Positions 26,577-28,223 of a stretch of DNA of 64,000 nucleotides are shown here, piece after piece. The notes below the pieces were generated by a model. The model saw only the letters and a program-made list of their open reading frames with translations. It had not been told where the DNA came from and did not search any database. Origin of the DNA: Mesomycoplasma dispar (lineage in GTDB: Bacteria > Bacillota_I > Bacilli_A > Mycoplasmatales > Metamycoplasmataceae); NCBI RefSeq assembly GCF_000941075.1, contig NZ_CP007229.1, forward strand, positions 806,001-870,000, written 5' to 3'. The stretch's first letter is position 1. Each line of letters opens with the position of its first letter. The translations under genes and the position numbers were made by a program.

Positions 26577-28223
26577 ATGCCGATAACAATTCTGGAAAAA
26601 ATAAGCAAATTAATTGTTAAGTTTAATGGCATAACAAATTCAAAAATCAACCTAATTTTAAAAGGAAGTGCCGTTTTTTGAATTGAAAACAAAACCAAGG
26701 AGAACTATCCAAACGATTTAGATTTTTCGATAAGTGAAACTAATTTAGAATCTAAACAGCAGTTTCTTAATTATATCGAAAAGAATGCAGAGATAAAAAT
26801 CACTAAAAATGACGGTAATTTGTTCATATTTTCACTAGACAATTTCAACATTGAAATTGTCCTTCTCGAACATCTTAATAGAAAATTTTTAGAAGAATCT
26901 GAATATGAAGGTATCCTATTTTTAAAGAAAATTTGGTCATTTAGTCAAAAATTACTTTCCTTGCCTTATATTTTAAGTGATTATTTTCCTCACGATCAAG
27001 ACCAAAAAATTTCTAGAACTTTGGCGCAGTTATCAAAATGAAAATCAATGATAGATACAAATTTACTATTCACCAATGAAGCAATCGATTTTCTAAAACA
27101 TTGTATGTGAAATAGTTTTTTTATTTTTTATTGATATAACTACACGGAAATGCTAGTTTTTGATTATGGGAAAAGTGAAAATCTTACAAAAATAAGTCTA
27201 GATTTGAACACAATAGAGATTATTGAAAAATTCTATGAATTTTTTTCTAAAAACAGTAAAATAAATAAAATAGTCCATATTTGTGATCTTATCTTAAAAA
27301 ATAAGGAAAAAATTATTAACTTTTTATTAAAAGGTTATGATGAAATTTCGCTCCCAGGAACTGAATTTAACTTTTTGAGAAAAATATTTAATATTAATCA
27401 AAATAAAAGTGAGCAAAATTTAGTTTATTTTCAAAAAAATAGCAATTCTGATAATATTTTTGTTAGTCATAGTGATGAAGCAGGCGGTCTTCTTGTTGAT
27501 GGTAAAATTTATAATCTTGGAACTTACAATTGGAAATCAGGATTATATAATTTATACGATCTTTCTGGGAAAATAGTTGGAAAAACTAACGGAATTCCAA
27601 TTGAAGAAAGTAAATGATCTGTTGAATATCAGGCCAAAATACCAAGATCTAGACTAAAAATAGATTATGAAAATAAGGAAAATGAAATTCTCCAGATAGT
27701 TTCAAGTCAAAAAACACTTTTTAATGAGCATATTTTTCTATCGCGTAATCACGATAATCGGATTAATACACTTATACTGTCGATTTTTGATAATTTTGAA
27801 ATATCAAAATTTAACTTTTTGATAACAACAAGAGAAGAAGTTCAACCTCAGTCAGCAAAAACAGCTTTTGTAAAGGAAATTATTCAAAAAAATAATTTTA
27901 TTTATAATTTGGAGGTTTCTGCTAGTCAACATTGAGATAAGGAAAACCTTTTAATTCGAGTTGCTGATTTTTATACAGGTATAAATGCAGAAATGATTAA
28001 TAAAATTGCAAGAGTTTTTGATGATTTTGCAATACCTTTTAAGTATTATTTTGGTTCAGGTTCAACGGATCAAACCGAATTTCAATTTAAAAATTCAGTT
28101 ACAATTGCAATTCCTGCAAATGAAATCCACAGTTATTCATCGAAAATACTTATTAAAAATATTTTCTATATGTTCCTAGCAATCGGTGTTCTAAATGATA
28201 GTTTTTCAGAAAAACTTCTATAA
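26577..28223 (+). CDS. Fusion of nucleotidyltransferase-like (AbiEii type) and M42 aminopeptidase-like domains
   Basis: One unbroken 548-aa frame. Residues about 1-190 resemble an AbiEii/DUF1814 nucleotidyltransferase: LKGSAVFW (28-35), then PNDLDFSI with Asp47 and Asp49, then IEIVLLE. From about residue 235 the sequence follows the M42 glutamyl-aminopeptidase/cellulase-like fold: SHSDEAGG (His298), HDNR (Asp393), TTREEVQ (Glu420, Glu421), GSGSTDQT, and EIHS (His518). A metal-ligand Asp expected between the Glu pair and the last His appears to be Ser in EVSASQH. AAGGAG is 13 nt before the ATG; an in-frame TTG at 26568 is an alternative start. It overlaps the following transporter gene by 29 nt. 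The domain reading is my motif comparison and needs structure prediction. Confidence 0.6.

Follow-up and report, generated by a model that had tools for sequence, protein, structure and literature searches.

A nucleotidyltransferase–M42 peptidase fusion coupled to a transporter gene in Mesomycoplasma dispar: possible remainder of a mobile small-molecule module of Mollicutes

A 64,000-nucleotide stretch of Mesomycoplasma dispar (assembly GCF_000941075.1, contig NZ_CP007229.1, positions 806,001 to 870,000), hereafter the window, from a mycoplasma genome assembled as one contig of 1,084,449 bp, carries a gene in which an N-terminal nucleotidyltransferase (NTase) domain and a C-terminal M42-type metallopeptidase domain are joined in one protein, and which overlaps a gene for a major facilitator superfamily (MFS) transporter. 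The fusion gene is a genuine NTase-plus-M42 architecture. Both domains belong to known superfamilies; the fusion and its module are absent from the scanned libraries and undescribed in the searchable open literature. As a tentative interpretation, to which we assign a probability of about 40%, the fusion and the MFS gene are what is left here of a mobile small-molecule module that occurs in Mollicutes and is concerned with modification, detoxification and export. The principal features, all in window coordinates, are as follows.

26558..26563 (+): AAGGAG, Shine-Dalgarno-like, 13 nt 5' of the ATG start and 4 nt 5' of an in-frame TTG at 26568 (direct reading)
26577..28223 (+): NTase-M42 fusion gene, 548 aa (genetic code table 4)
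26577..27281 (+): predicted N-terminal nucleotidyltransferase domain, aa 1 to ~235, beta-alpha fold with a helical tail (AlphaFold2 model, VIA-align)
27297..28220 (+): metallopeptidase domain of the M42 type at the C-terminus, aa ~241-548, into which a lid region is inserted at ~305-388
28195..29424 (+): MFS transporter gene, 409 aa (Pfam MFS_1, 40.8 bits, cut-off 33.4)
28195..28223 (+): overlap of the fusion and MFS genes, 29 bp, with translational coupling

The single 548-aa frame claimed in a preliminary description of this DNA is open under table 4, with its motifs in the places given there. It contains six TGA-Trp codons and can be read only with the mycoplasma code (TGA=Trp), since under table 11 TGA interrupts it. 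The ATG start gives the best alignment with relatives, the TTG at 26568 being a possible alternative. The translational overlap with an MFS-like gene, also proposed earlier, was borne out at 29 bp (vs. ~16–17 bp in most relatives), and the MFS gene is conserved with the fusion, adjoining it in most relatives. The other neighbor of the fusion in the window is a dihydrolipoamide-dehydrogenase-like gene.

Full-length homologues with the same domain order were found in many genomes, in sampled Mollicutes from two families, with 34–57% identity in sequence searches of related genomes, 33–57% in alignment A1 and 58% in genome G158 (sampled genomes are cited by G numbers, loci by L numbers); named carriers include Mesomycoplasma ovipneumoniae SC01, Mycoplasma sp. 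'Moose RK' and Mycoplasmopsis felis. A profile search of the order gave some match in 48 of 320 genomes, part of them ordinary M42 peptidases only, and matches in the class and phylum samples were essentially limited to the order. Recurrence of the full-length architecture across many assemblies, together with purifying selection (see below), excludes an assembly joining error, the outcome that the preliminary description had named as a refutation of the fusion. Its statement that no standard protein has this architecture also stands: no family model in the scanned libraries recognizes the fusion, which as a single query gave nothing above cut-off in Pfam, NCBIfam or PDB, and no description of an NTase-M42 architecture was found among open-licence papers. 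A plasmid or phage origin was considered and rejected, with no match in PLSDB or INPHARED. In one genome (G187), the NTase and M42 domains each have their own frame (234 and 299 aa, respectively), and the division coincides with the domain border (L140:7408-9038); these split frames share an operon with an intact asnA-like gene and an MFS-methyltransferase gene.

The NTase half is marked by the following residues.

26661..26669 (+): K29-G30-S31 motif, invariant (alignment A1)
26712..26723 (+): N46-D47-L48-D49, catalytic Asp pair D47xD49 (alignment)
26853..26855 (+): E93, third active-site carboxylate of the NTase (alignment)

All 12 full-length copies have K29-G30-S31, D47/D49 and E93 unchanged. 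A 240-aa AlphaFold2 model of the N-terminus (predicted local distance difference test score, pLDDT, 70.5) contains the NTase sheet order, so that both the beta-sheet and the Asp pair, the absence of which had been proposed as a refutation, are present. G30-S31, D47/D49 and E93 together with the sheet order of the models correspond to the Pol-beta superfamily, and an NTase fold of the N-terminal half is supported by modeling. In VIA-align comparisons, MenT1 came first (Z 10.1 over 161 residues), with scores tied among MenT1, ANT(2'')-Ia (Z 9.8, 148 residues), MenT3/TglT (Z 9.6, 195 residues) and Pol beta (Z ~10 over ~92 residues); a separate comparison gave Z 8.3 for LnuA. The earlier assignment to AbiEii-type nucleotidyltransferases holds at the level of fold likeness only; Pfam AbiEii (PF08843) has no match in the nine family members scanned, nor anywhere in the genome, and no Ser/Thr precedes the DxD motif.

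The M42 half shows the motif order HSDE (298–301), RNHDN (390–394), REE (419–421) and IHS (517–519), in agreement with the preliminary description, and its residues are assigned as follows.

27468..27479 (+): H298-S-D300-E301, first M42 metal ligand and catalytic Asp (alignment, hhalign)
27744..27758 (+): R390-N-H-D393-N394, bridging Asp (alignment)
27831..27839 (+): R419-E420-E421, general base and metal ligand (alignment)
27912..27914 (+): E446, fourth-ligand position, Asp in canonical M42 (alignment, hhalign)
28125..28133 (+): I517-H518-S519, last metal ligand (alignment)

The active-site residues H298, D300, D393, E420, E421 and H518 are all present in the window copy, in which the STD motif corresponds to residues 496–498. 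One metal ligand had been described as apparently lost; this is ruled out, as the position holds E446, a conservative Asp-to-Glu change common to relatives (G003, G158, G109, G024 and G147 have it too, and the remaining full-length copies have Asp). A search of PDB with the family profile matched the M42 peptidase PhTET1 (2cf4, E=1.6e-8), and hhalign against the canonical M42 peptidase that the same genome also encodes gave E=6.3e-6. A Pfam PF05343 scan of the window fusion gave no match above the gathering score; taken with the PhTET1 profile match, this indicates that the half is a distant M42-like domain rather than a canonical member. The previously suggested comparison of AlphaFold models by Foldseek matched both halves to solved NTase and M42 structures, the M42-half model being poor (pLDDT ~30–50 in much of the domain; built from four sequences). 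For this half, Foldseek and VIA-align list M42 enzymes (TET 5ds0 with a VIA-align Z of 9.9 over 177 residues), and conclusions rest mainly on sequence profiles. Relative to M42 aminopeptidases (PhTET1/TET, PepA, YsdC; PF05343), the metal-site motif order and spacing, the lid insertion and the fold are the same, whereas the window fusion has an N-terminal NTase, a Glu fourth ligand and a score below the Pfam cut-off. Full-length copies keep the NTase and M42 residues except in two genomes, where E420 is replaced by Ala (G014) or by Lys with additional loss of H298 (G024), and these copies may be catalytically impaired; a further copy (G147) keeps the ligands and has no lid region.

The two-gene module of the preliminary description was correct in that the fusion and MFS genes are coupled, and incomplete in that the pair is the remainder of a larger ancestral module of three or four functions, in which an asnA-like gene lies upstream and a methyltransferase is sometimes added. 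Three genomes (G006, G011 and G158) have an intact operon of asnA, fusion and MFS, the genes nearly abutting and the asnA-like gene ending a few bases before the fusion start. Its product scores 515–728 bits against NCBIfam NF005055 in G006 and G011 (cut-off 389), which is far above cut-off for the archaeal/AsnRS-like asparagine synthetase A family, and probably represents an asparagine-synthetase-A type, or asparaginyl-tRNA synthetase (AsnRS), catalytic core that has no anticodon domain. Unlike asparagine synthetase A at large, this module gene was found only beside the fusion (matches at E<=1e-55 in 4 of 392 sampled phylum genomes, all in that position) and is absent from the window. Interrupted asnA copies are present in G084 and G016, an intact one lies upstream of the split fusion of G187, and remnants, namely degraded asnA ends, precede the fusion in the M. 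ovipneumoniae group. The MFS protein carries a C-terminal S-adenosylmethionine (SAM) methyltransferase domain in five loci (G109, G016, G187, G028 and G162); 3 of 11 members weakly match a drug-type H+ antiporter model, and an MFS profile search of PDB returned no match.

Several lines of evidence show that this module moves between genera and families and often decays. NTase and MFS trees are largely congruent, and G158, from another genus, is nested with full support in the clade of the window and G003 copies. The MFS-methyltransferase genes of G109 (L035; another family) and G016 (L047) differ by a synonymous divergence (dS) of only 0.017, which, between different families, points to a recent horizontal transfer. 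Mutator-type transposase copies flank the G109 module on both sides, and in G004 (M. ovipneumoniae-type) the fusion is split by an IS30-like element with HTH_38 and rve domains (L042:8183-10969). In the M. ovipneumoniae group, ratios of non-synonymous to synonymous divergence (dN/dS) are, despite the loss of asnA there, 0.12–0.18 for the fusion and 0.06–0.08 for MFS; between the window and G158 they are 0.19 and 0.12, respectively, values at dS above 1 being rough; by these codon comparisons, selection on both genes is purifying. The transporter is usually the last part of the module to survive: MFS is open and the fusion broken or deleted in eight genomes (G004, G009, G016, G050, G152, G159, G160 and G164) vs. 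two with an open fusion that have no intact MFS (G003 and G024), single counts being open to alteration by assembly frameshifts. Such an asymmetry would be expected of a transporter that confers immunity, and fits that putative role.

We infer the chemical steps, the substrate and the direction of transport from the gene set. In the complete module, the asnA-like enzyme would activate an amino acid, most likely Asp, as an adenylate and join it to an amine; the NTase half would nucleotidylate that small molecule; the M42 half would strip an N-terminal aminoacyl group for maturation or self-protection; and the MFS protein, sometimes methyltransferase-fused, would export the product and protect the cell. 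In the present genome, where the asnA-like gene is absent, the fusion and MFS proteins would most plausibly modify, disarm and export a compound, or use an acceptor supplied otherwise. On the best reading, the substrate would be an aspartyl- or nucleotidyl-type small molecule. A comparable logic is found in microcin C-type operons, which comprise the NTase MccB, the MFS exporter MccC and the immunity peptidases MccF/MccG (PMC9239234). The likeness (nucleotidyl transfer, aspartyl chemistry, peptidase immunity and MFS export) is one of analogy, not homology: MccB is ThiF-like whereas the NTase half is predicted to have a Pol-beta fold, and microcin C has a precursor peptide, no counterpart of which was found in the 900 nt preceding asnA at five loci.

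Several points weigh against the small-molecule module. In the window, as in G003, G005 and G109, no asnA remnant can be detected 5' of the fusion, so asnA may be dispensable; at the window locus, similarity to asnA was no better than that of shuffles, and a remnant there was rejected. The just-mentioned absence of a conserved small precursor-peptide ORF upstream of asnA also counts here, and with it a precursor of a ribosomally synthesized and post-translationally modified peptide (RiPP) at that place was discarded as a candidate. Two genomes (G058, L045:7297-8781; G061, L046:7626-9101) hold shortened frames that have lost most M42 ligands and are accompanied by neither MFS nor asnA, yet are under purifying selection (dN/dS 0.07 between them), so that neither the M42 activity nor the exporter is always needed. 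Judging by this selection, the NTase half is apparently able to function by itself; in G058, the NTase-site residues D49 and E93 are missing as well, and these shortened relatives are perhaps a repurposed protein. Finally, retention of MFS by itself could reflect an unrelated transport role.

Mycoplasma genomes are reduced, and mycoplasmas are rarely regarded as makers of specialized metabolites. A mobile, selected multi-enzyme module that combines amino-acid activation with nucleotidyl-transfer, peptidase and export functions would point to a new small molecule in animal-associated mycoplasmas. As an unlikely extension of the module proposal, the set of asnA, NTase-M42 and MFS(-methyltransferase) may be an unrecognized biosynthetic and immunity cluster for a compound of the aminoacyl- or peptidyl-nucleotide type that mycoplasmas use among themselves, its bifunctional NTase-peptidase occurring nowhere else in the sampled genomes. 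The fusion provides a defined protein for testing the small-molecule module idea, and the order of gene loss predicts that the transporter confers immunity.

A stand-alone resistance cassette, which we consider rather doubtful, would make the fusion a dual drug-inactivating enzyme (antibiotic NTase plus peptidase), MFS an efflux pump against a compound of others, and asnA an accessory or resistance factor. The tie of the NTase half with ANT(2'')-Ia and its resemblance to LnuA in fold and carboxylate pattern are compatible with such a function, as are the common occurrence of the two-gene form, under purifying selection and with no intact asnA, the preferential retention of MFS, and the known role of peptidases as resistance factors against peptidyl-nucleotide antibiotics (PMC9239234). 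Nevertheless, the complete operons hold asnA and sometimes a methyltransferase, a content that fits synthesis better, and none of the named families of resistance NTases or exporters was matched above cut-off; in contrast to ANT(2'')-Ia and LnuA, with which there is no sequence-level match, the fusion also carries a peptidase.

Distinctly unlikely is a tRNA- or toxin-type enzyme, in which the NTase would be a MenT/AbiEii-like RNA nucleotidyltransferase and the M42 half would serve either as regulator or as aminoacyl hydrolase. MenT1 is the best single structural match, MenT3/TglT aligns over 195 residues, the asnA product is AsnRS-like, and the Pol-beta-type core with a helical tail and the GS...DxD pattern are shared. 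Of the MenT1 catalytic set (T39, D41, K137 and D152; PMC10435456), the window copy has D47 as well as K125 and D140, 15 residues apart as K137 and D152 are in MenT1. However, Pro45 stands where the Thr/Ser of MenT/AbiEii precedes DxD by two residues, D140 is Asn in three relatives (G011, G024 and G005), and the Z scores are tied with those of unrelated NTases. Neither an AbiEii nor a PADLOC match was obtained, and no antitoxin gene (MenA/AbiEi) adjoins the fusion, the partner of which is a membrane transporter; in relatives the neighbors are asnA or MFS. A toxin-antitoxin or defense assignment was rejected on these grounds, and the AbiEii/MenT toxin reading is weaker than that of a small-molecule cassette.

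Very improbable is nutrient salvage, in which MFS would import Asp/Asn-containing peptides or conjugates, M42 would free Asp and asnA would make Asn (an activity taken only from the NCBIfam name): M42 enzymes of the PepA type favor acidic residues and mycoplasmas rely on scavenging, but the conserved NTase site and the methyltransferase are left unexplained, the genome encodes a canonical M42 peptidase in any case, and patchy presence with frequent decay ill suits a nutritional need.

Elsewhere in the window, two further loci were noted. On the minus strand, positions 29687-43038 hold seven consecutive head-to-tail copies of a family of 590–613-aa proteins of near-equal length and sequence, with no Pfam match in the two copies scanned and no PADLOC match in the one copy scanned. 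Near this array, 46926-50126 (-) encodes a 1066-aa helicase (AAA_11/AAA_12) whose C-terminus is a weak REase_MTES_1575 match; its strong PADLOC matches to PDC-S37 (5.8e-70), Hhe and MkoA make it a candidate anti-phage defense gene.
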